A DNA stretch of 64,000 nt from Opitutaceae bacterium (GTDB taxonomy: Bacteria > Verrucomicrobiota > Verrucomicrobiia > Opitutales > Opitutaceae), in assembly GCA_027482185.1 (NCBI GenBank), contig JAIXWF010000017.1:1-64000 (forward strand). Direction: 5' to 3'. A program made the translations under genes and the position numbers. This document shows, piece by piece, positions 7,345 to 23,571 of this stretch. The notes beneath the pieces are model-generated. The model searched no databases. It worked only from the letters and a program-made list of their open reading frames with translations, and was not told where the DNA came from. Every line of letters begins with the position of its first letter. Position 1 is the first letter of the stretch.

Positions 7345-8484
7345 ATGGCCGCCCCAGCCGATCCCCTGGTCCAGGCGCCGCCGCCTCCGGAAGAGCGCGG
7401 CATGCTTTCGCCGTGGGCGCTGATCCGGCGCCGGTTCCGGCGGCACCGGCTGGCGATGGCGTCGCTTTACGTCCTCGCCGTGCTGTATGTGCTGGCGGCC
7501 GGGGCGGAGTTCTTCGCCCCGCAGACGCCGCATTGGCGGGACCTGAGCCACGCCTACTGCCCGCCGCAGCTGCCGCGCTTCACCTGGAAGGACGGGCTGC
7601 ACGTGTTGGCGCTGCGGGTGGAGGTCGACCCACTGACCTTCAAACGCAACTACCGCGAGGATCGCGGGCGGCCGCTGGCGCTGGGATTTTTCGTGCGCGG
7701 CGAACCGTACCGCCTCTGGGGCCTGATCCCGGCGGACCGGCACTTCTTTGGGTTGCGCTCGCCCGCGGCGGCCGGCGGGGCGGGGGCGACGTTCTACTTT
7801 CTCGGGGCCGACGAATACGGCCGCGATCTGTTCAGCCGGCTGGTGTACGGGGCGCGGATCAGCCTCTCGGTCGGGCTGGCGGCCATCGGCGTCACGTTCG
7901 TCCTCGGCGTCGCGATCGGCGGCATTTCCGGCTATTGCGGGGGCGCGGTGGATACGGCGTTGCAGCGCTTGATCGAGATCGTGAATGCGTTTCCCCAGAT
8001 CCCGCTGTGGTTGGCATTCGGCGCGGTGCTGCCGGCGGACTGGCCGCCGCTGACGGCGTACTTTGCGATCACGCTGGTGCTGAGTCTGCTAGGCTGGACC
8101 GGCCTCGCCCGCGTGGTGCGGGGCAAGATTCTGGCGCTGCGCGAGGAGGATTACGCGGTGGCGGCCCGGCTGCTGGGCGCGAGCCACGCGCGGGTGCTGT
8201 TTCGCCATCTGCTGCCGGGGTTTTCGAGCCACATCATCGTCGTGCTGACGATGAGCGTGCCCGCGATGATCCTCGGCGAAACGTCGCTGTCGTTCCTCGG
8301 GTTGGGCCTGCGCAATCCGATCGTGAGCTGGGGCGTGATGCTGCAGGACTGCCTGAGCATCCAGACGGTGGCGAATTATCCTTGGCTCCTGATGCCCGTG
8401 ATCCTGGTCGTCATCACCGTGCTCGGCTTCAATTTTTTGGGTGACGGCCTGCGGGACGCAGCCGATCCTCATTCTACCCCATGA
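7345..8484 (+). CDS. Oligopeptide-type ABC transporter permease (OppC/YejE-like)
   Basis: Inner-membrane permease of a peptide/nickel-class importer. The 379-residue protein (ATG at 7345; an alternative ATG is at 7402) has one N-terminal membrane segment, a long extracytoplasmic insert of about 120 residues, then five membrane segments. The insert ends in the family hallmark GADEYGRDLFSRLVYGARISL. The EAA loop for ATPase contact is YAVAARLLGASHARVLFRHLLPG, and the C-terminal block SLSFLGLGL is typical of OppC/YejE. Its stop overlaps the start of the next ATPase gene by four bases. The usual partner permease (OppB) and a binding protein are not encoded nearby, which is unusual. Confidence 0.88.
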   Translation: MAAPADPLVQAPPPPEERGMLSPWALIRRRFRRHRLAMASLYVLAVLYVLAAGAEFFAPQTPHWRDLSHAYCPPQLPRFTWKDGLHVLALRVEVDPLTFKRNYREDRGRPLALGFFVRGEPYRLWGLIPADRHFFGLRSPAAAGGAGATFYFLGADEYGRDLFSRLVYGARISLSVGLAAIGVTFVLGVAIGGISGYCGGAVDTALQRLIEIVNAFPQIPLWLAFGAVLPADWPPLTAYFAITLVLSLLGWTGLARVVRGKILALREEDYAVAARLLGASHARVLFRHLLPGFSSHIIVVLTMSVPAMILGETSLSFLGLGLRNPIVSWGVMLQDCLSIQTVANYPWLLMPVILVVITVLGFNFLGDGLRDAADPHSTP

Positions 8485-9341
8485 ACTACCCGACCGAGGC
8501 GCCCCTCCTCGATGTCCGCAACCTCCGCGTCGCCTTCGACACGGCGGAGGGCACCGTCGGCGCGGTGCAGAACATTTCGTTCACGCTCGAGCGGGGCCGC
8601 ACGCTCGCGCTGGTCGGCGAATCCGGGAGCGGCAAGAGCGTGACGGCGTACTCGCTTCTGCGGCTGATCCAGCCGCCGGGGCGGATGGTTTCGGGCCGGA
8701 TCATTCTGCGCTCGCGCCGCATCGGCGAAATCGACGTCGCGCACCTCGACGAAAAATCGGGCCTGCTCTATACCGTGCGCGGCGGCGTGATGAGCATGAT
8801 TTTCCAGGAACCGATGACGGCGCTGTCGCCCGTGCACACCGTGGGCAGCCAGGTCGACGAGGCGATCCTGACCCATCAGGACGTGAGCCCGGCGGCGGCG
8901 AAACGGCAGACCCTCGAGATGCTGCACAAGGTCGGCATCGCGGACGCGGAGGCCTGCTACCGCCGCTACCCCCACGAACTTTCCGGCGGCCTGCGGCAGC
9001 GCATCGTGATCGCGATGGCGCTGGTTTGCCGGCCCGAGCTGCTGATCGCCGACGAGCCCACGACGGCGCTCGATGTCACCATCCAGGCGCAGATCCTCGG
9101 GCTGATCCGGAAACTGCAGGGCGAGATCGGCTGCGCGGTGCTGCTGATCACGCACGACTTCGGCGTCGTGGCCCAGATGGCGGACGACGTCGCGGTGATG
9201 CAGCGCGGCGAGATCGTGGAGCGCGGGGCCGTGCGCAGCGTGCTCAAGCAGCCGCAGCATCCCTGCACGCGAATGCTGCTCGATTCCCTGCCGAGTCGAC
9301 GGGCGGCGCGGCTGGCGGCGAAGGCCGCCCCGGCGTCCTGA
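8481..9341 (+). CDS. Peptide ABC transporter ATP-binding protein (OppD-like)
   Basis: ATPase that powers a peptide-class importer. The 286-residue protein shows Walker [10 protein letters not shown] (about residues 48-56), Q-loop [15 protein letters not shown], signature LSGGLRQRI, Walker [15 protein letters not shown] and H-loop [10 protein letters not shown]. The C-terminal stretch [14 protein letters not shown] is the family's substrate-class signature region. It overlaps the permease gene by four bases (ATGA) and sits six bases before the second ATPase gene, so the three are one transcription unit. Confidence 0.92.
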
Positions 9342-9347
9342 GGCGCG

Positions 9348-10262
9348 ATGGCGGACACCGCCCAGATTCCCGGCCCGGCGGCGTCGCGCCGGCCGCTCCT
9401 CGAGGTCCGCGGTTTGGCGAAACATTTTCCCGCGGCGCGGTCGGGTTTCGGCCGGACCCCGGCGGAAGTGCTCAAGGCGGTGGACGACGTGAGTTTCGAG
9501 CTCGCTTCCGGCGAGTCGCTGGGCCTCGTCGGCGAGAGCGGCTGCGGCAAGACCACGACGGCCCGTTGCATCCTGCGCGCGATCGACCCGACCGCGGGCG
9601 AAGTGCGCTTCCGCATGCCGGACGGTCGCGTGCTGGACCTCGTGCAACTGGACGCACGCGAATTGAAACCCGTGCGGCGGCACGCGCAGATGGTTTTTCA
9701 GGATCCCTATTCGTCGCTGAACCCGCGCATGACGGTGCGCGACCTCGTCGGCGAACCGCTGGTGATCCACGGGCTGGCGCGCGGGGCGGAGCTGGACGAC
9801 CGGGTGGCGGACGTGCTGCGGCGCGTCGGCCTGCGGCCGGAGCACCGCGACCGTTATCCGCACGCGTTTTCCGGCGGCCAGCGGCAGCGCATCGGGATCG
9901 CGCGCGCGCTCATTCTGCGCCCTTCGCTGCTCGTGTGCGACGAAGCGACTTCGGCGCTCGATGTCTCCGTGCAGGCCCAGGTGCTGGACCTGTTGAAGGA
10001 CCTGCAGCGGGACTTCGGCCTGACCTACCTGTTCGTGGCGCACAACCTCGAGGTCGTGCGCGGTTTCTGCGACCGTGTCGCCGTGATGCGCCGCGGCAAG
10101 ATCGTGGAAACGGCGCGGACGCCCGAGATCTTCTCCGCCCCGCGGCACCCGTACACGCGGATCCTGCTGTCCGCGGTGCCGTCGCCGGATCCGGACGTGA
10201 AGATGAACTTCGACGTCGCGGACGAGCTGGCCCGGCTCGATGCGGCGGGTCCGGCGCCGTGA
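9348..10262 (+). CDS. Peptide ABC transporter ATP-binding protein (OppF-like)
   Basis: Second ATPase of the peptide-class importer, expected to form a heterodimer with the preceding OppD-like subunit. In 304 residues it has Walker [11 protein letters not shown]-loop [14 protein letters not shown] (the OppF-type DPYSSLNPR motif), signature FSGGQRQRI, Walker [15 protein letters not shown] and H-loop [10 protein letters not shown]. The Walker B tail reads DEATSAL, a mild change from the common DEPVSAL or DEPTSAL. Last ATPase of the cassette; a small Dabb gene follows 73 bp later and may be cotranscribed. Confidence 0.92.
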
Positions 10263-10335
10263 GCCCGCCGCGGCGCAGGATTGAGATTGCGGTTGCCGCC
10301 GGACGCCGGCGCGGGCCAATTCCCTGTTTTCCACC

Positions 10336-10635
10336 ATGCTCGTCCACACCGTTTACTTCTGGCTGAAACCCGAACTGACCGCCGCGCAGCGCGCCGACTT
10401 CCGCAAGGGCGTCGAATCGCTCGGCGGCATCAAGGCCGTCGCCCAACTCTTCGTCGGCACGCCGGCGAAGACGGTGAAGCGCCCGATCATTGACGATTCC
10501 TACTCGTTCGCGCTGACCGTGATCGTGAAGGACATCGCGGGCCACGACGCCTACCAGATCGATCCGATCCACCTGGCTTTCGTCGAGCGCTTCAAGACGT
10601 ACTGGTCGAAGGTGCAGATTTACGACGCGGAGTAA
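10336..10635 (+). CDS. Dabb (stress-responsive alpha/beta barrel) protein
   Basis: Small 99-residue protein of the Dabb family (ferredoxin-like dimeric alpha/beta barrel). It opens with the family's LVHTVYFWLKPELT strand and ends HLAFVERFKTYWSKVQIYD, the usual dimer strand and helix. Some relatives are enzymes (olivetolic acid cyclase type), but most bacterial members have no known reaction, so only the fold can be named. It follows the peptide ABC cassette, which gives no firm hint of its role. Confidence 0.85.
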   Translation: MLVHTVYFWLKPELTAAQRADFRKGVESLGGIKAVAQLFVGTPAKTVKRPIIDDSYSFALTVIVKDIAGHDAYQIDPIHLAFVERFKTYWSKVQIYDAE

Positions 10636-10676
10636 TCCCCTGCCGGGCCGGGGAACGGAGCCCGGAATCCGTGCCC

Positions 10677-10709
10677 AAGGGTGCTTAGGCACCCTTCCCC
10701 GAGGCGGGG
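10677..10709. terminator. Possible terminator hairpins after the Dabb gene
   Basis: AAGGGTGC (10677-10684), loop TTAG and GCACCCTT (10689-10696) form an 8-bp stem. This is followed directly by a short CCCC-GAGGC-GGGG hairpin. There is no T-tract, so termination is inferred from position alone: it separates the ABC/Dabb unit from the signalling operon. Confidence 0.4.
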
Positions 10710-10718
10710 AGACATTTC

Positions 10719-10733
10719 TAGGGGATTCCCCTA
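10719..10733. promoter_or_regulatory. Perfect palindrome upstream of the signalling operon
   Basis: TAGGGGATTCCCCTA has perfect 7-base arms around one central base and sits about 190 bp before the response regulator start. It is a plausible dimeric operator, for example for the operon's own LuxR-type regulator. No known site was matched with certainty. Confidence 0.4.
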
Positions 10734-10867
10734 CCGCAAATTTGCCCGGTAACGAACCCCGGCGAGAGCCCCGGGGGCGCCCCTGCCGGAAGCGGTATTT
10801 CTATAAGACTCTGCACGCGGACGGCTTCCGGTCCAAACGGATCGGGTGATTGGAGCCCGCAAATTGG

Positions 10868-10888
10868 GGTACTTTGACAAGAAGTACC
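10868..10888. promoter_or_regulatory. Second palindrome overlapping a TTGACA box
   Basis: GGTACTT (10868-10874) and AAGTACC (10882-10888) are perfect 7-base arms with a 7-base spacer. The sequence TTGACA at 10874-10879, a consensus -35 hexamer, lies within it, about 50 bp before the chosen start codon. No good -10 box is seen at the usual spacing, so the promoter reading is weak; the palindrome is directly visible. Confidence 0.4.
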
Positions 10889-10925
10889 TATTCACCAAGT
10901 GGGGTTAAATGCCGTAGGGTGGGGT

Positions 10926-11612
10926 ATGGACGCAACTCACCCCGCCGAAGCGGAAAAGACCGGAGTACTTATCGTCGAGGATCAGACCGCCATCCGGCAG
11001 ATGCTCGCTACTTTCATCCGGGCCATGCCCGGGTTCAACGTCATCGGCGAAGCCGGCAATGTGCAGGACGCCCTTGATCTCGCGCACAAGTTCCGGCCGA
11101 AGGTCGTCGTGCTCGACTGGATGCTGCTCGGCGGCATGGGCCTCGATTTTCTGCGCCAGGTCCGCGTCACGCCCAGCCCGGCCGTGCTCGTTTTCTCGGC
11201 CAACACCACCGAACTCGCCGTGCGCGAGGCGCTTTCCGCCGGGGCCCGCGGCTACATCGAGAAAACCGCCAGTTTTGCGGAGTTCACCCAGGCGCTCAAC
11301 GCCGTCGCCAGCGGCCAGACGTTCCTCGGGCCCGCCGTGGCGCGCGCCGTCCAGCGCATCGTCAGCCAACCCGACCGGCTGGAGAGCAACATGGAGTTGT
11401 CCGCCCGCGAGCGCGACGTCCTGCGTTTCCTCGCCGAAGGCATGTCTTCGAAAGAGATCGCCGACGTGCTCGGCCTCAGCATCCGCACGGTCGAGAACCA
11501 TCGCGCCAACATCACGCGCCGCACCGGCCTGCGTTCCGTCGCCCAGTTGACGCTGCATGCCGTCCGTCTTGGTCTGATCCAGCCGCCGGACCGCCCGCTC
11601 GAAAACTCATGA
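10926..11612 (+). CDS. NarL/FixJ-family response regulator (receiver plus LuxR-type HTH)
   Basis: Phosphorylation-controlled transcription factor, the only DNA-binding output in this signalling operon. The 228-residue product (ATG at 10926, preceded by a purine-rich AGGGTGGGG) has a receiver with acidic pocket E18/D19 and phospho-acceptor Asp64 in VVVLDWMLL. The C-terminal LuxR HTH (about residues 160-222) contains LSARERDVLRFLAEGMSSKEIA and SIRTVENHRANI. An in-frame ATG nine codons upstream (10899) is possible. Its stop overlaps the start of the next gene by four bases (ATGA), so translation is probably coupled. It is the natural target of the kinases encoded behind it. Confidence 0.93.
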   Translation: MDATHPAEAEKTGVLIVEDQTAIRQMLATFIRAMPGFNVIGEAGNVQDALDLAHKFRPKVVVLDWMLLGGMGLDFLRQVRVTPSPAVLVFSANTTELAVREALSAGARGYIEKTASFAEFTQALNAVASGQTFLGPAVARAVQRIVSQPDRLESNMELSARERDVLRFLAEGMSSKEIADVLGLSIRTVENHRANITRRTGLRSVAQLTLHAVRLGLIQPPDRPLENS

Positions 11613-13078
11613 GCGACCGCAGCCGCATTCTCGTCATCGACGACGACCTCAGCGTCCGCCTCCGCCTCTCCGAACTCCTCACGGCGAACGGCGACTTCAA
11701 CGTGGCCGAGGCCGACAACGGCACCGACGGGCTGCGGCTCGTCTCCGAGTTTTCGCCCGACCTCGTGCTGCTCGATCTGATGATGCCCGGGATCAGCGGC
11801 CTCGAGGTCTGCACCCGCGTGCGGCAGGATCCGGTGGCGCGCGAAGTCCCGATCATCGTGCTGTCCGCCGCGGACGAATCCGACGCCATGATCGCGGCGC
11901 TCGACGCCGGCGCCGACGACTACCTGCGCAAACCGTTTTCCTCCGCCGAACTCCGCGCGAAGGTGCGGACGATCACGCGGCTCAACCGTTTCCGCGGCCT
12001 GGCCGGGGAACGCGACCGTTTCCGCTGGCTGCTCGACCATTCGCTGGAACCGCTGGTCATCGTCGACGGCGACGGCCGGTTGGTGCGCGCGAATGCGCGG
12101 GCGCAGGAAGTCTTCGGCCTCCCGGCCGAATCCGGCGCCGAGAAACTCGAGCTGGCCGCGGCGGTGTCGCGGCATTTCCGCGCCGACCCGCCCGATGCAT
12201 GGGAGGCCTGGCGCGAGGGCCGGCTGCCCGACGGCACCGGCTTCGCGATCTACCAGCCGGAAACCCCGCAGGTGGCGCCGCGCTGGTTCGAGGTCGAGCG
12301 CCAGGCGCTCGAGGGCACGACGAAGCAGACGCTGCTCAAGTTCACGAACCGTTCCGGCTGGGTGCGCCGCGAACTCGAGACGTTCACTTTCCAGAGCCTG
12401 ATCGCCCACAAGATCCGCACGCCGCTCAACGGACTCGGCCCGATCCTGTCGTTTCTCGAAGAGTGCGGCTCTTTCGAGGGCGATCCCGAGGTGAGCGAAA
12501 TGCTCCGCCTCGCGCGGAAGAGCGCCGAGCGCCTCGAGGAGACACTGCTTTCCATTCTCCGCCACCACGAGGCGGTGTTCCAACCCGAGCGCAGTCAGAC
12601 GCCGGCGCCGTTGCAGTCGCTGGCCGAGATCGCCCAGGCGGCCGCGCAATCCGCCGGTCTGGCCGCCGGCCTCGTCTGGACCGGCCCGCGCTGCTCGGTC
12701 GCGCATGCGGCGGTGCTCGAGGTCGTCTTCAACGAATTGCTCGGCAACTACGGCAAGTTCAGCGAGGCGCCGCGGCTCGGCATGAATCTCGCGGTCCGCG
12801 CGGGCGCCGACGGCGGCGGCGAGATCCGCCTCTTCGCTCCGGGCGTCGGGTTGCCGCCGGATGTCGTCGCCCAGCTCGGGCGGCCGTTCTGGCAGCTCGA
12901 AGGTCGCTTCAGCGGCGAAGTCCCCGGCATGGGACTCGGGCTCGCCACCGCGCGGATGTTGCTGCGGAATGTCGGCGGCGACCTCACCTTCGCGAACAGC
13001 GCCGAGCCCTCCGGCCTGGTCAGTACCCTCTTCCTCCCCGCCGGTTCCCTCCAAGTCGATTTGGTCCATGCCCTCTGA
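11609..13078 (+). CDS. Receiver-PAS-histidine kinase, ATP site degenerate
   Basis: Signal-transduction protein of 489 residues with the order receiver (1-125, Asp56 in LVLLDLMMP), PAS-like region (about 130-250), HisKA dimerisation domain (His267 in IAHKIRTPLNG) and an HATPase domain (about 370-480). The N box is recognisable (NELLGNYGKFSE), and so is the G2 box (GMGLGLATARML). In the G1 box, however, the nucleotide-binding Asp of DxGxG is replaced (FAPGVG). It could be a weak kinase, a phosphatase or a pseudokinase partner. The H box HKIR also departs from the usual HELR/HEIR. Its 3' end overlaps the next gene by 11 bases. Confidence 0.85.
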   Translation: MSDRSRILVIDDDLSVRLRLSELLTANGDFNVAEADNGTDGLRLVSEFSPDLVLLDLMMPGISGLEVCTRVRQDPVAREVPIIVLSAADESDAMIAALDAGADDYLRKPFSSAELRAKVRTITRLNRFRGLAGERDRFRWLLDHSLEPLVIVDGDGRLVRANARAQEVFGLPAESGAEKLELAAAVSRHFRADPPDAWEAWREGRLPDGTGFAIYQPETPQVAPRWFEVERQALEGTTKQTLLKFTNRSGWVRRELETFTFQSLIAHKIRTPLNGLGPILSFLEECGSFEGDPEVSEMLRLARKSAERLEETLLSILRHHEAVFQPERSQTPAPLQSLAEIAQAAAQSAGLAAGLVWTGPRCSVAHAAVLEVVFNELLGNYGKFSEAPRLGMNLAVRAGADGGGEIRLFAPGVGLPPDVVAQLGRPFWQLEGRFSGEVPGMGLGLATARMLLRNVGGDLTFANSAEPSGLVSTLFLPAGSLQVDLVHAL

Positions 13079-14159
13079 AACCGCCTGCCCGCCTGTCTCC
13101 GCCGCTCCCGGCGTCGAAGCCCTGGTGCCGGCCGTTTTCACGGCCGACCGGAACGGAAACTGCACGGCCGCGAACGCCGCGGCCCGCGCTTTGCTGCCGG
13201 GCGGCGCGGACGGTCGCGCCGGGCGGTCTTGCCTGCGCGCGGTGTTCCCGGCCGACCGGAGCGCGGTCCTCGCGGCGTGGCGCGAGCTGCGGACGGGCGC
13301 CGACCGGAGCCGCGCCGAGTTCCGGCTCCGCGGCGCCGACGGCTCCGCGATGTGGCACCTGGCCGAATTCTCGGTCGCCGAAGGCGGATCGCGGGTGGCC
13401 GCGGTGGTCACGGACATCGGTTTCCTCAAACAACGCGAAGCCGCGCTGCAGGCCCGTCTGGCGGCTGCGGCCGCGGAGCTGCAGGGCCGCAGCGATTTTC
13501 TGGCGGGCCTGAGCCACGACCTGCGATCCCCGTTGAACGCCGTCATCGGCCTGACCGAATCCCTGATCGAAACCGGCGCGCCCTTCGACTCGGTGCGGAC
13601 GGACAAATACCTGAAACTGGTCAACGCGAGCGGACGCCAGCTGCTCGGGCAGCTCAACGAAGTCATCGACCTCGTCCGGATCGACGCCGGCCGCACGGTG
13701 CCGAACCGCTCAGCCGTGGATGTCGGTTCCGCGGTGCGGGCCCTCGGCGAAGCGGCGCGCAAGGAAGGCGCGGCCAAAGGCGTGGAGGTCGCGGTCGAAC
13801 GGCCGGCCGCCCCGCTCGTCATCGCCACGGACGAACGCCTGCTGTGGCAGGTGCTCCAGATTCTGCTGCACAATGCCGTGAAGTTCACGCCGTCCGCGGG
13901 CCGCGTGACCGTGTCCGCGGCGGCCGGCGCCGCCGGGGTGGTCCGGGTCGAGATCCGCGACACCGGCGCGGGGATGCCCGCGGAAAAGACGGCGCGGATT
14001 TTCGCCCCCCATGTGCCGGGCGGCGCGGGCAAACGCACCGGCCCCGGGGTCGGCCTCACATTGGTGGGCCGGATCGTACCGCTGCTGGGCGGCCGGATTT
14101 CCGTCGCGAGCACGCCCGGGGCGGGCTCGGTTTTCGCGCTCGAACTTCCTCCCGCCTGA
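13068..14159 (+). CDS. PAS-domain sensor histidine kinase
   Basis: Cytoplasmic sensor kinase of 363 residues. A PAS domain (about residues 15-130, ending in the PAC-like VAAVVTDIGFLKQREAAL) is followed by a short coiled coil, HisKA with His150 in LSHDLRSPLNAVIG, and HATPase (about 235-363) with N box LLHNAVKFTPS, G1 IRDTGAGMP and G2 GPGVGLTLVG. All catalytic motifs look intact. No membrane segment is seen, so it senses an internal signal or is driven by partner proteins. The ATG at 13068 lies inside the end of the preceding gene (11-base overlap); a longer frame starting upstream was rejected because it overlaps the previous gene heavily. Confidence 0.88.
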   Translation: MPSETACPPVSAAPGVEALVPAVFTADRNGNCTAANAAARALLPGGADGRAGRSCLRAVFPADRSAVLAAWRELRTGADRSRAEFRLRGADGSAMWHLAEFSVAEGGSRVAAVVTDIGFLKQREAALQARLAAAAAELQGRSDFLAGLSHDLRSPLNAVIGLTESLIETGAPFDSVRTDKYLKLVNASGRQLLGQLNEVIDLVRIDAGRTVPNRSAVDVGSAVRALGEAARKEGAAKGVEVAVERPAAPLVIATDERLLWQVLQILLHNAVKFTPSAGRVTVSAAAGAAGVVRVEIRDTGAGMPAEKTARIFAPHVPGGAGKRTGPGVGLTLVGRIVPLLGGRISVASTPGAGSVFALELPPA

Positions 14160-14166
14160 TCCCCCC

Positions 14167-15708
14167 ATGAAGCCGAAAATTCTGATCGTCGACGACGAGC
14201 CGCTGAACCAAGCCACGCTCGAAGGCTTCCTCGGCGGGGACGGCTACGAGCTGTTCTTCGCCGGCAACGGCCTCGAGGCCTGCGCCCAGGCGCACGTGGT
14301 GCAGCCCGACCTGATTCTGCTCGATGTCATGATGCCGGAGATCGACGGCTTCGATGTCTGCCGCCGGATCCGCAGCGACCCGGTGATCGGCCGGATCCCG
14401 ATCATCATGATCACGGCGCTGGACGACGACCGCTCGCGGCTCGAGGGCTTGCGGGCCGGGGCCGACGATTTCCTGACCAAACCCTGCCGCCGCGACGAAC
14501 TGCGCGCGCGCGTGCGCACCGTGGCCTCCCTCAACCGCTTCCGCGAGATCGCAGAGCAACGGGCGCGTTTCGAGCTGCTGCACGAACTCTCGCCTTCGCC
14601 CATTTTGCTCGTGCAGGCGGACGGCACCGTGCTCACGGCCAATCCGGCGGCGGAGAAACTGCTCGGCGCCGGGGCGGGCCGGCGGCTCGCCGGCGACACG
14701 CTTTTCTCCCGCTTCGCCGGACCCGCCGACGCGACGCTCCGCCGGCTCGTGGCCGCGGCCCATGCCGGCGCGCCCGAGCCCGGGCAGGAATTGCGCCGTA
14801 CCGCCGGCGAGCTCTGCCAGGTGCTGCAGGTGCGGGCGAGCGCCGTGCCGGAAGGCGGGGCGCGGCTGGTCCTGATCGTGCTCGACGATGTGACGGCCGA
14901 GGTCGGCGCCCGCGAGGCCCTCGAGAAGATGAACACCGAGCTCGACGGCATGGTGCGGGCGCGCACGCGCCAGCTCGAGGACGCAAACAGCCTCCTGATG
15001 TCGTACGCCAACTTCGTTTCCCACGACCTGCGTTCGCCGCTCACCGTGATGAAGGGCTACCTTTCGATGATCCAGGAGGGACTGGTGCCGCTGGCGGAAT
15101 CCGCCTCGCTGGTCGAGCAGGCGTACAACGCGACGCTGATCATGCAGGAACTGGTGCAGAACATCCTGCAGCTGGCGCAAGACGAGCACGACGGCGCCAA
15201 TGCCCAGACCATCAAGCTGGTCGAGCCGACGCCGATCGTGACGCGGCTCTACCGGCATCTCAATTCGATGTTCCCGCACCCGGCGCGGCGCTTCGCCTGC
15301 GGCGAATTGCCGATCGTCGGCGTCAGTCCCTTCGTGTTGGAGCGCGTTTTCTACAACCTGATCGGCAACGCCATCAAATACTCGGACCAGCGCGAGCAGC
15401 CGAGCATCGAGATCGGCAGCCAAACTTCGCCCGAGGGGCCGGTGCTGTATGTCCGCGACAACGGCGTCGGCTTCGATTCCCGCCAGGCCGACAAACTCTT
15501 CCGCGAATTCTCGCGGCTCGACACCGCCGGGAGCGCCGACGGGTTCGGGCTCGGACTCTCGCTGGTGGCCCGGCTGGTCAAAGGTCATGGCGGGCGCCTG
15601 TGGGCCGAAGGCGTGGTCGGCGAGGGTGCGACCTTCTACGTCCAATTTCCGCCGCCGGGCCCGATGCCGGATTTCGGCGCGACGGGCCTGGTGGAAACGA
15701 CGCGCTGA
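14167..15708 (+). CDS. Receiver-PAS-histidine kinase (hybrid, receiver first)
   Basis: 513-residue signalling protein with receiver (1-125, DD9-10, Asp53 in LILLDVMMPEID), PAS domain (about 135-250), a coiled-coil linker (about 255-280), HisKA with His286 in FVSHDLRSPLTVM, and HATPase (about 390-500). The HATPase motifs are intact: N box FYNLIGNAIKYSD, G1 VRDNGVGFD and G2 GFGLGLSLV. Receiver-first kinases are often controlled by phosphotransfer from another kinase, so this one may act downstream of a neighbour. It starts 7 bases after the preceding stop and ends 9 bases before the next gene. Confidence 0.9.
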   Translation: MKPKILIVDDEPLNQATLEGFLGGDGYELFFAGNGLEACAQAHVVQPDLILLDVMMPEIDGFDVCRRIRSDPVIGRIPIIMITALDDDRSRLEGLRAGADDFLTKPCRRDELRARVRTVASLNRFREIAEQRARFELLHELSPSPILLVQADGTVLTANPAAEKLLGAGAGRRLAGDTLFSRFAGPADATLRRLVAAAHAGAPEPGQELRRTAGELCQVLQVRASAVPEGGARLVLIVLDDVTAEVGAREALEKMNTELDGMVRARTRQLEDANSLLMSYANFVSHDLRSPLTVMKGYLSMIQEGLVPLAESASLVEQAYNATLIMQELVQNILQLAQDEHDGANAQTIKLVEPTPIVTRLYRHLNSMFPHPARRFACGELPIVGVSPFVLERVFYNLIGNAIKYSDQREQPSIEIGSQTSPEGPVLYVRDNGVGFDSRQADKLFREFSRLDTAGSADGFGLGLSLVARLVKGHGGRLWAEGVVGEGATFYVQFPPPGPMPDFGATGLVETTR

Positions 15709-15717
15709 CCATCGCCG

Positions 15718-18480
15718 ATGCCGATCCAGCATCCATGGCGGGTGATCGCGCTGGCCGCGGCGGCGGCGGCGGCGAACTGCATCCGGGTCGAATTGCCCGG
15801 CAACACGAACCTGCTGCTGGGCGTGCTGATCTACATGCCGCTCGTGCTGACGCTGCCGTGGCAGTGGGGCACGCTGGCCGCGGGCGTCGCGCTGGCGGCC
15901 ACGGTGGAGCGTTACGGGCAGCCGTTTCCGCTGCTCGTCGGGATGGCGGAGGCGCTCTGGCTCGGCCTCTGGTTGCGCCGGAGCCAGCGTTCGCCGGTCC
16001 TGATGGATCTGATTTTCTGGGGGGCGCTCGGCGTGCCGCTGGTCTTTGCCTTTTGCCTCGGCGCGGCGGACCAACCGGCGGTCATCGCGGGGCTCTCCGC
16101 CGCCAAGTACGTGCTCAACCACGTCGTGGCCGTGGCGTTGGCCGCGCTGGTGCTGCGGCACTCCGACCTTGGCGGCTGGCTCGTCGGACGCGTGAGCCGG
16201 CGGGCGCGCATGCGCGAGGTGGTGTTCCATCTGGTGATCGTCCTCGCCCTGGTGCCGCTGGTGCTTCTGGGGCTCGGCGCCAGCGCGCTGCTGAGCAGCT
16301 ACCATCGCCAGGAAAACCGCGAGCTGCTGACGCAGACGTCCCGCCGCGTGGCGCAGCAGATGGATCTTTTTCTCGAGCACCATGAGTCGGTGCTCCGTTC
16401 GATGGCCGGGCAGCTCAACCGGGGCGGTGTCGACGCGCAGGCCATGATGAACGAGACCCAGCGGGCGCATCCGGAATTCATCACGATGCTGCTCACGGAT
16501 GCCTCGGGCCGCATCCGCCAGGCCGCGCCGGGGCGGATGCTGGACACGGTCCGGGCGACATCCGTCGCGGACCGCGATTATTTCATCGAGGCGCGGGACC
16601 GGCAGGAGCCGTTCATTTCGCCGGTGTTCCGGGGCCGCGGCTTCGGCCGCGACACGATCGTCGCGATCAGCGCGCCGTTTTACGACGCGAGCGGCAAGTT
16701 TGCCGGGGTGATCGAAGGATCGCTGGAGGTCGAGCGCTTCGCGCAGCAGATCATCGGCAGCGACCTGCACGGCGACGTCGATCTGATCCTCTGCGATCGG
16801 ACGGGGCGGGTGATCCGGGCGGATCCGGAGACCGGGTCGGTTTCGCTCGACCGGATCGTCCATCACCCGCACGGGGCAATTTGGGCGAATCCGGAGCAGG
16901 GGATGGAGTTCGACTTCGATTCCGGTTCCGGCAAGACGCGCTTCATGGCGTTCGGCGCGCGGGCGCCGGGCAACGGCGTCGTCGTCTTCGCGCAACGGCC
17001 GGCGCTTGCCGGGGTACGCGGCGCCGCGCCGATTTTCGTCTACTTCGCGGTGCTGGCGGCGGGCATCTGCCTGACGGCGTTCTGGGTCTCGCACCTGGCC
17101 CGCCGGCGAATGGCCAAGCCGTTGGAGGATTTCGCCCGCAATGCGAGCCGCCAGGCCGCGATGCGGACGGTGGAGCCGATCCCCGACCAGTCGGCGGAGG
17201 CGACCGTCGAGATCGCGATGGTCTATTCCGCGTTCAACCAGCTGGCGATCCAGCTGCAGGGCACGTACGCGATGCTCCGGCAGCAGAACCGCGAGCTGGA
17301 CGCGCGCGTCGCGGAACGCACCCGCGAGCTCGAGCAGGCCCGCCAGCATGCCGAGGCGGCGAGCCGCTCGAAGAGCGATTTTCTCGCCATCACGAGCCAC
17401 GAAATCCGCACGCCGCTCAACGCCATCATCAGCCTGTCCGAAGCTGTCTCGCTGAAGGCGACGGACCCGCAGTCCGTCGACCAGCTGCGCCTGATCCGCA
17501 ACTCCGGCACGCGCCTGCTGAACGTCGTCAACGACCTGCTCGATATTTCGCGCGCCGAGGCGGGCCGGCTCGAGCTGCACCTTGCCCCGGTGGAACTCGG
17601 CGCGCTGGTGCAGGAGGTCGGCGCGTTGTTCCAGCTGCGCGCCCGCGACCTCGGCGTCGGCCTGCGGCTCGAGCTCGAGCCCGCGCTGCCGCTTTGGCTG
17701 CGCGCGGACGGCCCGCGCCTCCAGCAGGTCCTCATCAACCTGATGGGCAATGCGCTCAAGTTCACCAAGGTCGGCGAAGTGGCGCTGCATGTCGCCGCGG
17801 GCGCCGCCGAGGCGGGCCGGCTGCGGCTGCGCTTTGCGGTGACCGACACGGGCCCGGGAATCTCTGCGGACGAACAGGCGCGGCTGTTCCAACCCTATGT
17901 GCAGCTGCCCGGGGCCTCCGCCAGCGCGGTGCCGGGCACGGGACTCGGCCTCTCGATCTCGCGCCGGTTGGTCACGCTGTTCGGCGGCGACCTCGGCGTG
18001 CGCAGCGAAGTCGGCCGCGGTTCCGAGTTCTTCTTCACATTCGAGGCCGAGCTGGCCGAGCCGCCGGCGCAGGCGATCCCGGCGCCCGCACCGGCGCCGA
18101 CGCAGGCCCTCCGCGTCCTCGCGGTCGACGACAACGAGGCCAACCAGGAGGTGCTGCGGGTCCTCCTCGAGACGCATTGCCGCCGGCTGGAGATCGTCGG
18201 CGCCGCGGAGACCGCCCTGGAATTAGCGCAGCGCGAGACTTTCGATCTGGCCCTGATCGATCTCGAAATGCCGGAGATGGACGGCTTCACGATGGCGCGC
18301 CTGATGCGGGCCCCCGGCTCCAAGGCGCAGGCCTGCCGCCTCGTCGCCATCTCGGCCCACGCCGAGGACGAAATGTGGCACCGCTGCGCCGAGGCCGGCT
18401 TCGATGGCTACCTCGCCAAGCCGATCGACCGGAAGCGGCTGGCCGAGGTCCTGCAGGGCCGGGGCGCGGCGCCCGTCTGA
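15718..18480 (+). CDS. Membrane-bound hybrid kinase: multi-TM N-terminus, Cache-like sensor, HisKA, HATPase, receiver
   Basis: 920-residue hybrid kinase. Residues 1-190 carry several hydrophobic segments resembling a MASE-type membrane sensor. A further membrane segment (about 165-190) leads to an extracytoplasmic Cache-like domain (about 200-430, with DRDYFIEARDRQEPFISP and VAISAPFYD typical of dCache). Another membrane segment (about 440-462) and a HAMP-like linker follow. The kinase core has His561 in TSHEIRTPLNAI, N box LMGNALKFTK, G1 VTDTGPGIS and G2 GTGLGLSIS. The C-terminal receiver carries Asp848 in LALIDLEMPEMDG. It is the only clearly membrane-anchored kinase of the operon and could add an external signal. 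30 bases separate it from the H-NOX gene. Confidence 0.9.
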   Translation: MPIQHPWRVIALAAAAAAANCIRVELPGNTNLLLGVLIYMPLVLTLPWQWGTLAAGVALAATVERYGQPFPLLVGMAEALWLGLWLRRSQRSPVLMDLIFWGALGVPLVFAFCLGAADQPAVIAGLSAAKYVLNHVVAVALAALVLRHSDLGGWLVGRVSRRARMREVVFHLVIVLALVPLVLLGLGASALLSSYHRQENRELLTQTSRRVAQQMDLFLEHHESVLRSMAGQLNRGGVDAQAMMNETQRAHPEFITMLLTDASGRIRQAAPGRMLDTVRATSVADRDYFIEARDRQEPFISPVFRGRGFGRDTIVAISAPFYDASGKFAGVIEGSLEVERFAQQIIGSDLHGDVDLILCDRTGRVIRADPETGSVSLDRIVHHPHGAIWANPEQGMEFDFDSGSGKTRFMAFGARAPGNGVVVFAQRPALAGVRGAAPIFVYFAVLAAGICLTAFWVSHLARRRMAKPLEDFARNASRQAAMRTVEPIPDQSAEATVEIAMVYSAFNQLAIQLQGTYAMLRQQNRELDARVAERTRELEQARQHAEAASRSKSDFLAITSHEIRTPLNAIISLSEAVSLKATDPQSVDQLRLIRNSGTRLLNVVNDLLDISRAEAGRLELHLAPVELGALVQEVGALFQLRARDLGVGLRLELEPALPLWLRADGPRLQQVLINLMGNALKFTKVGEVALHVAAGAAEAGRLRLRFAVTDTGPGISADEQARLFQPYVQLPGASASAVPGTGLGLSISRRLVTLFGGDLGVRSEVGRGSEFFFTFEAELAEPPAQAIPAPAPAPTQALRVLAVDDNEANQEVLRVLLETHCRRLEIVGAAETALELAQRETFDLALIDLEMPEMDGFTMARLMRAPGSKAQACRLVAISAHAEDEMWHRCAEAGFDGYLAKPIDRKRLAEVLQGRGAAPV

Positions 18481-18510
18481 TTTCCCAACCCCAACCCCCG
18501 GAAAAATCCT

Positions 18511-19053
18511 ATGTACGGCATGGTCAATCGTTCGGTCGAAGACATGGTGAAATCCGCCCACGGCGAGTCCGTGTGGCTCGAAATCAAACGGCGCGCGGGC
18601 GTGACGGAAGACATCTTCATCAGCAACGCCGGCTATCCCGACGAAATCACCTACCGGCTGGTCGGCGCCGCCAGCGAGGTGCTGCAGCTGCCCGCGGACA
18701 AGATCCTCCACGCCTTCGGCGAGCACTGGGTGCTCAACACCGCGCGCAAGGGCTACGGCCCCATGATGGCGATGGGCGGTTCCACATTGCCGCAGTTTCT
18801 CGAAAACCTGCCGGCATTCCACGACCGGGTCGCGCTGCTGTACCCGAAACTTGTGCCGCCGCGGTTTGCGGTCAGCGACCGTACCGAGCGTTCGCTGCGG
18901 CTCCATTACCACACCGACCGGCCCGGACTGACGCCGTTTGTCGAGGGGCTGATCCACGGCCTCGGCAAGATGTTCGACACGGCGGTGCAGGTGACCCTGC
19001 AGGAGAACCGCGGCACGGGCCACGATCACGACGTGTTTTTGGTCGCATGGTAA
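18511..19053 (+). CDS. H-NOX haem nitric-oxide sensor (HNOB domain)
   Basis: Stand-alone haem sensor of 180 residues, the same fold as the NO-sensing domain of soluble guanylyl cyclase. The proximal haem ligand is His104 (LPAFHDRVALLYPKL context), and the propionate-binding YxSxR motif appears as Y133-x-T135-x-R137, a Ser-to-Thr variant. The distal position that holds Tyr140 in oxygen-binding H-NOX proteins falls on Pro142 here, as in NO-selective members. The protein contains no cysteine, so the zinc/thiol redox switch of some H-NOX proteins is absent. Its last 7 bases overlap the next gene, a kinase with the matching HNOBA domain, which strongly implies that the two products bind each other. 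Confidence 0.95.
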   Translation: MYGMVNRSVEDMVKSAHGESVWLEIKRRAGVTEDIFISNAGYPDEITYRLVGAASEVLQLPADKILHAFGEHWVLNTARKGYGPMMAMGGSTLPQFLENLPAFHDRVALLYPKLVPPRFAVSDRTERSLRLHYHTDRPGLTPFVEGLIHGLGKMFDTAVQVTLQENRGTGHDHDVFLVAW

Positions 19054-21653
19054 ACTCCGGTCCAGTGCCGCTGGCGGTCTCCCCGGGGGAGCTCGACACG
19101 CTGTTTCCGTTCCATTTCGGCCTGGCGCCGGACGGAACGCTGACGCGCGTCGGCCGCGGGCTGCTACGTATGTCGGAAGCGGCGGCGACGGGGGATTCAC
19201 TGGCCCGTTGGTTCGAGCCGGTGCGGCCGGCGGAGCCGTTCGACGCGGCGCGGTTGCGGGCGACCGCCGGCCGCCTGACGACGATCCGCGAGCGGCGTCG
19301 CGGCACGATCCTGCGCGGGCAATTCCAGGTGCTCGGCGGCGAACTGCTGTTCGTCGGTTCGCCGTGGCTCACCAATGTCGACGACCTGCGGAACGTCGGT
19401 CTGACCATGTCGGACTTTGCCGTGCACGACCCGACGCTCGACCTGGTGCAACTGCTCCAGCTGCAGAACCTCGCGGTCGAGGATCTGCACCGGATGAACG
19501 ACCGGCTGGTCGTGCAAAGCAACCAGCTCGCCGAAAAGGAAGCGCAGGAACGGAAACTTTCCCTCGTGGCGGCGCGGACGGACAACGCCGTCGTCATCAC
19601 CGACGCGGACCGGAAAATCGAATGGGTCAACGAGGCTTTCACCCGCATCACGGGCTACACGCTCGCAGAGGTCGTCGGGCGCAAGCCGGGCGCGTTCCTG
19701 CAGGGCGAGGAAACCGACCCCGCGACGGTCCGGCGGATGCACGAGCATCTCGAGCGCGGGGAGAGCTTCCGGGTCGAGGTCGCCAACCACAGCCGCACCG
19801 GCGATCCCTACTGGATCGAGCTCGAGGTGCAGCCGATCCGCGAGCCCGGCGGCCGGCTCACCCATTTCATGGCGATCGAGACCGACGTCACGGCCCGCCG
19901 CCGCGCCGGCGAAAACCTGCGCGCCCAGGTCGGTGTGGCCGAAGTGCTTTCGGGTCAGGCCGAGGCCGGCGAGGCGCTGGCGCAGGTCGCAGCCGTGATC
20001 GGACGGGAGATGGCCTGGGATGTCGCGCTGGTCTGGACCGCGGAAGGCACGGAGACCCTGCGGTTGGCCGCGAGCCGGGCCGAGCCGCGCGCGGGCGCCG
20101 CCGAATTTTGCCGGGAGATGGCGGAGCTTCGGCTTGCCCCGGGACAGGATTTTCCGGCCCGGGCCTGGGCCGACGCGCAACGCCTGGTTGTGCCGGAGCT
20201 GGGTGCGCACCCCGAATTCCGCCGCAGGCCCGCGGCCGCGGCGGCGGGCCTCCGCAGCGCCGTGGTGCTGCCGGTGCGGGAAAACGGCCGCGTCGTGGCG
20301 GTGATCGAGCTGTTCTCCCGGTGGCGCGGGGCGCCGGACGAGGCGCGGCTCGATGTGCTGGCGACCGTGGCCAGCCAGCTGCAGCAGTTTCTCGAGCGCC
20401 TGCACGCCCGCGCGGCGCTGCGCCAGCGCACGGAGGAGCTGACCCGGGTCAATTCCCGCCTCGCCGAGGCGATGCGGCTGAAGGACTCGTTCCTTGCGAG
20501 CATGAGCCACGAGCTGCGGACGCCGCTCACGGGGATCCTCGGGCTTTCGGAGACGCTCATCGACCAAGTCTACGGTCCGGTGAACGAGAAACAGCTGAAG
20601 TACCTGCGCATCGTCGAAAGCAGCGGCCGGCGCCTGCTGGCCCTGATCAACGACCTGCTCGACTTGGCGAAGATCGACAGCGGCCAGGACAAGATCGAGA
20701 AGAGCGAAGGCCGGCTGGACGACATCTGCGATTCCGCCGTGCGGCTGGTGCGGTTTGCGGCGAACCAACGCCGGCAGGAATTCGACTACCGCAACGAGGT
20801 GCCCGGCCTGCAGGTGAATCTCGACCGGCGCCGTCTGGGCCAGGCCTTGGTCAACCTCCTCAACAACGCGTCGAAGTTCACCCCCGAAGGCGGCAGTCTG
20901 GGACTCCGGGTCTACCGGCGCGACGCGGAGCTCGTCTTCGACGTGTGGGATCGCGGCATCGGGATCGCGGCCCCGGACCAGGCGCGGCTGTTCCAGCCGT
21001 TCGTGCAGCTCGATGGCCGGCTCGCGCGCCAGTACGAAGGCACCGGCCTCGGCCTCGCGCTGGTGAAGCAGATCGTGACCCTGCACGGCGGACGCGTCGA
21101 CGTGGTCAGTGCGCCGGGCGAAGGTTCGACCTTTTCGATCGTGCTGCCCTGGACCGGCCAGGATGCCGGAGCGCCGGCGGCGGGTCCCGGGCGAACGATC
21201 CGCGTGCTGCTGGCCGAGGACAATCCGACCAACGTGATCGCGATCCGCGACTATCTCGAGCAGAAGGGCTGCGAGGTGACGGTGGCGGAAAACGGCGCGG
21301 TCGCCGTGGAACGGACCGCCGCGTGGGCGCCCGATGTGATCCTGATGGATGTGCAGATGCCGGAAATGGACGGGCTCGAGGCGACCCGCCGGATCCGGTC
21401 GCTGCCCGATCCGGCCCGGGCGGCGACGCCGATCGTGGCGGTGACCGCACTCACCTTGGACGGCGATCGCGAGCTCTGCCTGCGGGCGGGGGTCAACGAT
21501 TACCTCGCCAAGCCGGTTTCCCTGCGGACGCTTTGGTCCACCGTGCAGGAGTTGGCCGCGCCGCCGACGCCGCCGACGGCCGGATCGTTCGCCCCTTTCG
21601 CCGCCCATGGGCCGGCGGCGAAACTGAGTAGAACTGCTCCTGTGATCGGGTAG
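19047..21653 (+). CDS. H-NOX-associated hybrid kinase: HNOBA-PAS-GAF-HisKA-HATPase-receiver
   Basis: 868-residue partner kinase for the H-NOX protein. The N-terminus (about 10-160) matches the HNOBA domain, including ELDTLFPFHFGLAPDG and the VGRGLLRM turn, as in guanylyl cyclase and H-NOX-linked kinases. Then come a coiled coil, a PAS/PAC domain (about 185-305, TDADRKIEWVNEAFTRITGY), a GAF domain (about 320-455), HisKA with His488 in SMSHELRTPLTGI, HATPase (N box LLNNASKFTPE, G1 VWDRGIGIA, G2 GTGLGLALV) and a receiver with Asp768 in VILMDVQMPEMDG. The ATG at 19047 overlaps the H-NOX stop. The longer reading frame upstream lies across other genes and was rejected. NO binding to H-NOX most likely changes this kinase's activity. 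Confidence 0.93.
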   Translation: MVNSGPVPLAVSPGELDTLFPFHFGLAPDGTLTRVGRGLLRMSEAAATGDSLARWFEPVRPAEPFDAARLRATAGRLTTIRERRRGTILRGQFQVLGGELLFVGSPWLTNVDDLRNVGLTMSDFAVHDPTLDLVQLLQLQNLAVEDLHRMNDRLVVQSNQLAEKEAQERKLSLVAARTDNAVVITDADRKIEWVNEAFTRITGYTLAEVVGRKPGAFLQGEETDPATVRRMHEHLERGESFRVEVANHSRTGDPYWIELEVQPIREPGGRLTHFMAIETDVTARRRAGENLRAQVGVAEVLSGQAEAGEALAQVAAVIGREMAWDVALVWTAEGTETLRLAASRAEPRAGAAEFCREMAELRLAPGQDFPARAWADAQRLVVPELGAHPEFRRRPAAAAAGLRSAVVLPVRENGRVVAVIELFSRWRGAPDEARLDVLATVASQLQQFLERLHARAALRQRTEELTRVNSRLAEAMRLKDSFLASMSHELRTPLTGILGLSETLIDQVYGPVNEKQLKYLRIVESSGRRLLALINDLLDLAKIDSGQDKIEKSEGRLDDICDSAVRLVRFAANQRRQEFDYRNEVPGLQVNLDRRRLGQALVNLLNNASKFTPEGGSLGLRVYRRDAELVFDVWDRGIGIAAPDQARLFQPFVQLDGRLARQYEGTGLGLALVKQIVTLHGGRVDVVSAPGEGSTFSIVLPWTGQDAGAPAAGPGRTIRVLLAEDNPTNVIAIRDYLEQKGCEVTVAENGAVAVERTAAWAPDVILMDVQMPEMDGLEATRRIRSLPDPARAATPIVAVTALTLDGDRELCLRAGVNDYLAKPVSLRTLWSTVQELAAPPTPPTAGSFAPFAAHGPAAKLSRTAPVIG

Positions 21654-21675
21654 GCGCTTCCGTTATTCTCGGGCC

Positions 21676-21888
21676 ATGCAGATTGCGCGCGCCACGGCCA
21701 TTTCGAGCTATATCGCGGGGGCGGCGCAGCCTTTTCGGGCGCGCGATCCGGCGGCGCCGGCGGCGGCGGAAGCGCCCGCGCGTGCGCCCGCCGGGAGCCG
21801 CGAACTCGAGAGTTTTGTGCGCCGGCTCAACGATGCCGCCGTCCTCGGGGCCACGCCCCGCGGGCCGCGCGCCCGGCCCGGTGTTTGA
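21676..21888 (+). CDS. Possible small hypothetical protein
   Basis: A 70-codon frame (MQIARATAISSYIAGAAQPF...) begins 22 bases after the HNOBA kinase stop and is read in the same direction. The product is Ala/Pro/Arg-rich after residue 22, with one predicted helix (SRELESFVRRLNDAAVLG). The first 20 residues look protein-like, but composition alone could produce this in 70% GC DNA. No family is recognised. The rest of the 370-bp gap up to the chemoreceptor gene shows nothing else. Confidence 0.35.
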   Translation: MQIARATAISSYIAGAAQPFRARDPAAPAAAEAPARAPAGSRELESFVRRLNDAAVLGATPRGPRARPGV

Positions 21889-22023
21889 GGCCGGCGGACC
21901 GTAGTTTTCGCCGGCGGATTTGAGCGGATCCGCTTTCCAGACAAAAGCGGCGGCGATCGGTAGAGTTACGGGACGAGGACGGCCGGCGCATTTGCCGGCG
22001 CGGTCCCGTGACGAAACCGACCG

Positions 22024-23571
22024 ATGAAATCGCTGACCATCCAACGCCGCCAATATCTCACCACCGCGCTCCTTGTGGCCGGTGTCCTCGCCGTGGGAGG
22101 CCTGCTCCTGCAGGACAGCCGGAAGCGGGATGCGCAGCACCTGCGGCGGGCGGAACTGGTCGGGGAAATCGGCCGCCTGCAATTGGCCCTCGGCGAAATG
22201 GAGTCGGCCACCCGCGGCGTGCTGATCGATCCGGCCGGCCGCGCCGAGCGGAGCCGGAAAGAAAAGGCCGACGAAACCGCCAAGGATGCGTTGGCGGCGC
22301 TGAAGCGCTGGGCGGGAGACGAGCCGGAACTCCTCCGCCAGGTGGACGCGATCGAACGGGCCGACGAGGAACGCTTGAATCCCGCGGAAGACCGGCTGCT
22401 GGCCCTCGCCGGCACCGCGTCGGCGACGGAAGTCCGCGAGTACTACCAGGGCCGCTTTGTGCCGGAGCGCGCGGCGCTGAACGCGTTGATCGCCGGGTTT
22501 CTGTCCGATGTCGCCAAGGTGGATGCGCAGCGTGCCGCCGATTTGGAGGCGCGGCGCCGCATCGAACTGTCGTTGCTCGGCCTCGGTTTGATCGCCGGGG
22601 TGGCCGTGGCGGTCTGGCAGGCGCGCAAGGTCTACCGTCTCATGCACGAAGCGGTGGAGCCCATCGCGCCGGCGCTGGCGGACATTGCCGCGGCGGCGAA
22701 CTACATCTCGGGCTCGAGCCAAGCCCTGGCCCGCGACTCCAGTTCCCAGGCCGCGTCGCTCGAGGAAACGAGCGCTTCGCTCGAGGAAATGAACTCCATG
22801 GCGAAGCGGACGGCGGAGAGCGCCCACCGCGCCCGCGAAGAGGCGGGCGAAACGCGCTCGGCGGCGGAGCAGGGCACGGCCCAGATGGCCGCCATGCAGG
22901 CCGCGATGGCGGCGATCCGCAATTCCAGCACCGAAATCGCCAAGATCCTCGGTACGATCGACGAGATCGCCTTCCAGACCAACCTGCTCGCGCTCAACGC
23001 GGCGGTCGAGGCGGCGCGGGCCGGCGAGGCCGGCGCGGGCTTTGCGGTCGTGGCGGACGAGGTCCGGGCCCTGGCGCGGCGCTGCGCCGAAGCGGCCCGC
23101 GAAACCGCGGGCAAAATCGAAATCGCGACGCGCAGCAGCCGCGAAGGGGCGGACCTCAGCGCGACGGTGGCGACCGGCTTTGCGGACATCAGCCGGCGGG
23201 TCACGACCCTGGAGAATCTCATTGCCGAAATCTCGACGGCCGCCGCGGAGCAGAACCAGGGCATCGCCCAGATCACGTCGGCCGTGGGCGATATGGACCG
23301 CCTGACGCAGGGGCATGCTGCCTCCGCCGAGGAAGGTGCCGCTGCCGCCGAGGAACTGAGCGCGCAGATCGTGACGGTGGACCATTCCGTCCGCGAATTG
23401 CGCCTGTTGCTCGACGGCAACGATGCCAGCCCGTCGGTGGCAGCCTTGGCCGCGACCGAACCGGTGGTCCGTCCCGCGATCACGCCGCGGCAGCCGGAAG
23501 GAATCCGCACTCCGCTCCGGCCCCCGGTGCGCCCGGCCGGTCGTCGTCCCCTGGAGTTCGCCGGCCGCTGA
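22024..23571 (+). CDS. Methyl-accepting chemotaxis protein
   Basis: Chemoreceptor of 515 residues. It has an N-terminal membrane segment (about 13-29), a CHASE3/4HB-like helical extracytoplasmic domain (about 30-175), a second membrane segment (about 180-198), and a cytoplasmic coiled-coil signalling domain. The hairpin tip [23 protein letters not shown] is the universal CheA/CheW contact. Methylation-helix sequences ([15 protein letters not shown] and EQNQGIAQI) are present. There is no recognisable HAMP after the second membrane segment. No CheA, CheW or flagellar genes are in the window. The position behind the H-NOX operon, same direction, suggests but does not prove a shared stimulus. 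Confidence 0.92.

Follow-up and report, generated by a model that had tools for sequence, protein, structure and literature searches.

What does an H-NOX gene do in a cluster that holds five kinase-like genes and a single transcription regulator? The question is raised by seven same-strand genes (g1–g7, + strand) at positions 10926–21653 of a 64-kb window, i.e., the whole stretch of DNA analyzed here (positions 1–64,000 of contig JAIXWF010000017.1 of an Opitutaceae bacterium). An earlier note on this DNA had proposed a nitric oxide (NO)-sensing phosphorelay of five kinases and three or four receivers with only one DNA-binding output. The open reading frames (ORFs) and the sequence gave exactly the overlaps (g1/g2, 4 nt; g2/g3, 11 nt; g6/g7, 7 nt) and gaps (g3–g4, 7 nt; g4–g5, 9 nt; g5–g6, 30 nt, the largest) that it had listed, and Pfam agreed with its NarL-type regulator (g1), kinases or hybrids (g2–g5), H-NOX protein (g6) and HNOBA-containing hybrid kinase (g7). 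Pfam also bore out g1 as the sole DNA-binding output among the seven proteins, as well as the joining of the H-NOX/HNOBA kinase with PAS, GAF and Cache inputs in one compact multi-kinase cluster, which is conserved in some relatives. The receivers, however, number five (g1, g2, g4, g5 and g7), and one of the five proposed kinases, g2, is predicted to be kinase-dead in the window and in all its orthologues. The cluster is real, conserved in part and modular, and the mechanism proposed below is a prediction. Gene content, spacing, motif losses, conservation and the presence or absence of H-NOX/g7 were read from the sequence. For all seven proteins, the best 25 NCBIfam matches stayed below the cut-offs of their models.

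In a census of 252 family genomes, with up to six candidates scored per genome, g2 orthologues were found in 14, and the surroundings of each were examined, in some cases on a short contig. The gene g4 was in the cluster at 13 of these loci, either adjoining g2 or separated from it by g3, while g1 was present at 9, g5 at 7, g3 at 6 and H-NOX/g7 at 4. H-NOX/HNOBA thus accompany g2 at only 4 of these loci, which makes the cluster a modular cassette and not a fixed NO operon, and NO sensing, which the earlier note had taken as the defining trait, is not supported in that role. The complete seven-gene order is kept at L020 and L029, which rules out chance clustering, and L030 lacks g3 only; the gene order, whose conservation the earlier note had proposed to check, is conserved in some relatives. 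L020 belongs to Opitutia bacterium Tous-C1TDCM (Verrucomicrobiota), has an H-NOX protein 93% identical to that of the window, and is identical over 4461 bases to G733, a genome of the window's genus. L029 is distant (genome G129 of another genus; g2 58% and H-NOX 73% identical), with a shorter g7 that has the HNOBA and histidine kinase (HK) parts without PAS, GAF and REC, and with a second NarL-type gene. A scan of named genomes, which covered close relatives only, returned one locus.

The other contexts show how the content varies. L027 (G066) has g4, g5, H-NOX and the HNOBA kinase but no g1–g2 orthologues; next come a REC-PAS-HisKA_3 kinase gene and a further gene of NarL type. L121 (G748, 8% contamination) has g5, H-NOX and the HNOBA kinase, as well as two ORFs, one encoding a REC and one a kinase, at the position expected for g4. 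All six genomes of genus g44 have g2–g4 and a downstream hybrid kinase without HNOBA, and four of them have g1; the gene in between (L081 and L102) is lipoprotein-like, with a Cache match at L081 of 26.8 bits, below the cut-off of 45. Only g2–g5 are present in G140 and G123, and by eye the G140 locus (L103) has the same kind of flanks as the window, namely ORFs that are transporter-like and HflX-like. Directly after g5, G023 has a chemoreceptor gene (L101, 7933–9624), whereas H-NOX/g7 lie in between in the window; two CheW-like ORFs, named by eye, stand beside the G023 chemoreceptor. On midpoint-rooted trees, the presence of H-NOX required two changes for g4 (12/500 shuffles as low), two for g5 and three for g2 (175/500 as low in each case), with the H-NOX-less G023 nested among H-NOX-bearing loci. 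One gain and one loss would be the simplest reading of the g4 tree, although not proof of it.

The chief new finding concerns g2, which is predicted to be kinase-dead. Pfam identified REC, PAS and HATPase domains and a weak HisKA match (21.6 bits, under the cut-off of 26.9), and the AlphaFold (AF2) model, made from a ten-sequence alignment, has the order REC-PAS-DHp-CA (mean predicted local distance difference test, pLDDT, 81.3; predicted template modelling score, pTM, 0.47). An N-terminal REC with a C-terminal DHp/CA, as present in g2 and g4 (Pfam; for g2 also the AF2 model and Foldseek), is the layout of a hybrid response regulator. The g2 H-box reads H-K-I-R-T vs. H-(E/D)-x-x-(T/N) in active HisKA proteins, and Ala-Pro-Gly replaces the Asp of its G1 box; thus, of the acid at His+1 and the G1 Asp that mark active HisKA proteins, g2 has neither. 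A search of 372 order genomes gave 12 with a match at 1e-60, four of them above 430 bits and eight distant, and four of the distant homologues entered the comparisons. The alignment showed Lys at His+1 in 14/14 orthologues and 4/4 distant homologues, while the G1 (ATP-site) Asp was missing in 14/14 orthologues and kept in two of the four distant homologues. The acceptor His, the Thr at +4 and GxGLG were kept in all 18, the His being residue 267 and the Thr residue 271 in g2. The losses in the orthologues speak against g2 as an ordinary kinase. The acid at His+1 was kept in all rows examined of g3 (6/6), g4 (14/14), g5 (9/9) and g7 (6/6), counted by pattern, or by alignment for g7 of L030 and L121 and g5 of L103 and L104, the terminal kinases of genus g44 being left out. 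In the window's genome, the Lys-type H-box pattern matched once (g2) and the acid-type pattern 26 times, the two patterns being unequal in strictness. An isolated g2 copy without REC lies at L082 (9477–10544) in the same-genus genome G006, where no other operon genes were found around it within the 20 kb read.

Mutagenesis of CrdS and three other HisKA proteins showed that the acid is required for kinase activity and dispensable for phosphatase activity, and that the Thr/Asn at +4 is required for phosphatase activity and dispensable for kinase activity (Willett and Kirby, 2012; PMC3510030). The acid was replaced by Ala or Asp; Lys is not mentioned in the portions of that paper available to us (PMC3510030). 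Together with the motif losses, these results point to a g2 that is kinase-negative and may be phosphatase-positive. The g1 and g2 genes overlap by 4 nt in 9/9 loci with both, so g1 is the likeliest substrate of g2.

No HPt domain was identified by Pfam in the seven proteins, which speaks against an HPt within the operon; six HPt matches are found elsewhere in the genome, all on other contigs, and these could act in trans. Of the phosphorelay in the earlier note, the multi-kinase cluster with one output is supported, but the HPt usual in a classical His-Asp-His-Asp phosphorelay is lacking within the cluster. Given that g5 and g7 end in receivers, a His carrier would be expected, and g2 might substitute for HPt by passing phosphate from these receivers via its His to g1. 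Spo0B and ChpT are such phosphotransfer proteins in their relays. The invariant acceptor His (14/14 orthologues) and the whereabouts of the HPt matches are consistent with such a role, and so is the Vibrio H-NOX kinase HqsK, which reaches LuxU solely via His-Asp-His transfer (PMC6759604). However, g2 has Lys where an acid normally adjoins the His, and g7 lacks the C-terminal REC in G170 (L030), G129, G066 and G748, the last of which ends early, so that a relay via the g7 REC is not general. We consider this role quite unlikely. It is just as improbable, in our view, that g2 is a DivL-like reader, which would bind the phosphorylated receiver of g1 or g4 and steer an active kinase, e.g., g4, while moving no phosphate. 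The Foldseek matches of the g2 model include the REC-HK protein LvrB (8vc9, rank 3 and others) and DivL (4q20, rank 44), and g2 and g4 share one cluster at nearly all g2 loci. In DivL, however, Tyr replaces the His (PMC4211667), whereas g2 keeps His and Thr+4 throughout its orthologues, which suggests retained chemistry, and LvrB has autokinase activity (PMC5863495).

HNOB is represented by one gene, g6, in the window's genome; its nearest match in the PDB is Nostoc Alr2278 (E 1.8e-57). HNOB was found in 27/252 family genomes at 29 sites, and the column of the proximal heme His (His104 in g6) is His in 29/29 family rows. The usual H-NOX heme motif is Y-x-S-x-R; the g6 motif YHTDR is Y-x-T-x-R, with Thr in place of Ser as in L020, L021, L022, L025, L029, L032 and L124. 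A distal Tyr marks the O2-binding H-NOX members. Phe143 of g6 aligns with Met144 of Alr2278, and no Tyr occurs in the g6 stretch around it; g6 is thus read as a predicted NO sensor, with putative heme and NO binding. A HNOBA gene directly follows H-NOX at 20 of the 29 sites, and the Trp73 column is Trp in 19 of these 20 and a gap in the other nine of nine. The exception, L032 (9403–12017), has Cys at Trp73 and His at the motif Arg, and the kinase after it is in several ORF pieces, which reflects decay or sequencing error. In g7, a HNOBA domain and an HK core adjoin the H-NOX gene. Among 286 class genomes, 31 had a HNOBA match, many of them weak and to the profile end only; of four HNOBA regions tabulated (L087–L090), two have H-NOX beside the HNOBA gene. 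Ten other HNOBA rows require six changes on the kinase tree, at least two of them forced by well-supported branches, and this scatter indicates that HNOBA has been attached to several kinase lineages.

These patterns bear on whether H-NOX and g7, though on the same transcript as the other genes, form a separate plug-in pair with signaling targets elsewhere, which would be compatible with any reading of g2. The pair has no g4–g5 beside it at 14 of the 20 HNOBA-linked sites (some on short contigs) and is absent at 10 of the 14 g2 loci, and H-NOX and g2 lie on different contigs in G749, G750 and G753. On the other hand, H-NOX/g7 come directly after the g5 gene in six genomes (window, L020, L027, L029, L030 and L121), and the g7 kinase cores of these six form one group (support 86/89). 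We regard full independence as rather unlikely.

Among the remaining kinases, g5 has five hydrophobic stretches and is the only one of the seven proteins with stretches of membrane length; its dCache match is 52.7 bits (cut-off 45). A changed G2 box is a further feature of g5 at the H-NOX-less L103 and L104. The g4 match to the LvrA model remains under the cut-off (195.1 vs. 1200 bits).

We tentatively propose, at slightly less than even confidence, that the cluster encodes a modular many-to-one two-component network, in which four active kinases would converge on g1, with g2 as a receiver-controlled phosphatase and H-NOX/g7 as one exchangeable input. The target of NO-loaded g6 would be the HNOBA region of g7, whose kinase activity would thereby change, with a presumed sign, while g5 would contribute an extracytoplasmic Cache signal and g3 and g4 cytoplasmic PAS signals. 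The predicted active kinases g3, g4, g5 and g7 would act on the receivers of the cluster, chiefly the N-terminal RECs of g2 and g4, and their signals would meet at the NarL-type g1; we infer every phosphate transfer in this scheme. The DHp of g2, with its His, would serve as a phosphatase on g1 under receiver control and without a kinase role, and would set the degree to which the kinases charge g1, which may regulate at least its own operon through a putative operator.

Several observations weigh against this network. The g1 gene was found beside g2 at only 9 of the 14 g2 loci; of the other five, L108 is truncated by a contig end. Direct charging of g1 by g3, g4, g5 or g7 is also conceivable and would leave g2 without a role. 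Lys at +1 in the four distant homologues, two of them with the G1 Asp, indicates that part of the change predates the operon, and the same two homologues imply that this Lys might be compatible with activity. In g5 of L103 (10859–13840, G140) and L104 (7405–10371, G123), Gly occupies H-box +4. The H-NOX loci cluster on the g4 tree but do so less clearly on those of g5 and g2. Finally, DivL, a pseudokinase of HisKA-type fold, has neither kinase nor phosphatase activity (PMC4211667).

A block with the heptamer TACYYMT, which we take to be the NarL-type consensus, precedes g1 (Table 1), and the heptamer lies 35–42 bases before the g1 start in the window, L020, L029, L101 and L030 (five of eight upstream stretches), but it is not shared, by eye, by the three from genus g44. 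A genome-wide search for the block with up to one mismatch matched only the operon itself. A palindrome, TAGGGGATTCCCCTA, also lies upstream of g1 (10719–10733) and is kept only in part in L020. With their short gaps and three overlaps, g1–g7 form a putative single operon; a scan of 10200–22100 found no sigma-70-type promoter (0.6 expected), and its terminator-like sites (15 vs. 7.7 expected) are uninformative. A Dabb gene is also found upstream of the cluster.

Table 1. Positions of the cluster genes and neighboring features in the window.
Feature	Position	Strand	Basis or remark
Two ORFs, ABC transporter ATPase-like	8481-9341, 9348-10262		upstream of cluster; named by eye
Upstream block GACAAGAAGTACCTATT with NarL-type heptamer TACYYMT	10876..10892	+	candidate operator/promoter element, putative function
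g1, NarL/LuxR-type response regulator, REC + GerE	10926..11612	+	Pfam Response_reg 74.1, GerE 62 bits
g2, hybrid response regulator (REC-PAS-DHp-CA), predicted to be kinase-dead	11609..13078	+	Pfam, alignment, AF2 model
g3, PAS + HisKA + HATPase histidine kinase, no receiver, no predicted membrane segment	13068..14159	+	Pfam
g4, REC + PAS + HisKA + HATPase hybrid response regulator, kinase motifs intact	14167..15708	+	Pfam
g5, membrane dCache + HisKA + HATPase + C-terminal REC hybrid histidine kinase	15718..18480	+	Pfam
g6, H-NOX protein, Alr2278-like; His104, Y133-x-T-x-R137, Trp73	18511..19053	+	HNOB 169.1 bits, cut-off 25.5
g7, HNOBA + PAS + GAF + HisKA + HATPase + REC hybrid kinase, predicted H-NOX partner	19047..21653	+	HNOBA 63 bits, cut-off 23.4
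Chemoreceptor gene	22024-23571		downstream of cluster; Pfam

It is possible, although doubtful, that g1, g2 and g4 form the core of a novel type of signaling cassette, in which a NarL regulator would have a Lys-H-box, kinase-dead hybrid response regulator as its dedicated phosphatase or phosphotransfer hub, with interchangeable sensor kinases (H-NOX/HNOBA, Cache, PAS and lipoprotein-Cache) plugged in during evolution. As a predicted natural many-to-one system with adjacent parts and with inputs that vary among relatives, the cluster makes the integration of NO with other signals testable by comparison or removal of modules, and g2, with its Lys-type H-box, offers a test case for the possible evolution of a HisKA protein into one that serves purely as phosphatase or as phosphotransfer hub.

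A full-text literature search, directed in part at kinases in general and mostly without subscription papers, found no described H-NOX system of this gene set and architecture, in line with the earlier note, and H-NOX, HNOBA and histidine kinase together in one paper, as far as the part available shows, a cyclic-di-GMP review. HNOB/HNOBA pairs were reportedly described by Iyer et al. in 2003. Such pairs are also defined in Pfam, and the HNOBA gene directly after g6 resembles them; the likeness to Alr2278 is of the protein only and not of the gene neighborhood. HnoC belongs with the HnoX/HnoK system of Shewanella. That system, with HnoB and HnoD, is like the cluster in having an H-NOX-controlled kinase and more than one downstream protein, but its output is cyclic-di-GMP turnover, whereas the output here is a transcription regulator accompanied by four further kinase-like proteins (PMC8738867; PMC8846402). 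In Vibrio, H-NOX inhibits a hybrid kinase that passes phosphate to HPt, and the H-NOX/HqsK-LuxU-LuxO quorum-sensing system likewise has H-NOX and a hybrid kinase in one operon and kinases that converge on one regulator; these kinases meet at the separate HPt LuxU, whereas the present HPt-less cluster has a NarL-type output, a HNOBA kinase and a kinase-dead REC-HK (PMC6759604). The LvrA/LvrB pair also consists of REC-HK proteins without DNA-binding output in branched signaling, but LvrB autophosphorylates, while g2 has no such catalytic residues and its coupling is to a NarL regulator (PMC5863495). DivL shares with g2 a HisKA-type fold without kinase function, from which g2 differs in its retained His and its N-terminal receiver (PMC4211667). 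The families of the parts are known; what looks new is how they are combined and that a kinase-dead g2 is conserved.

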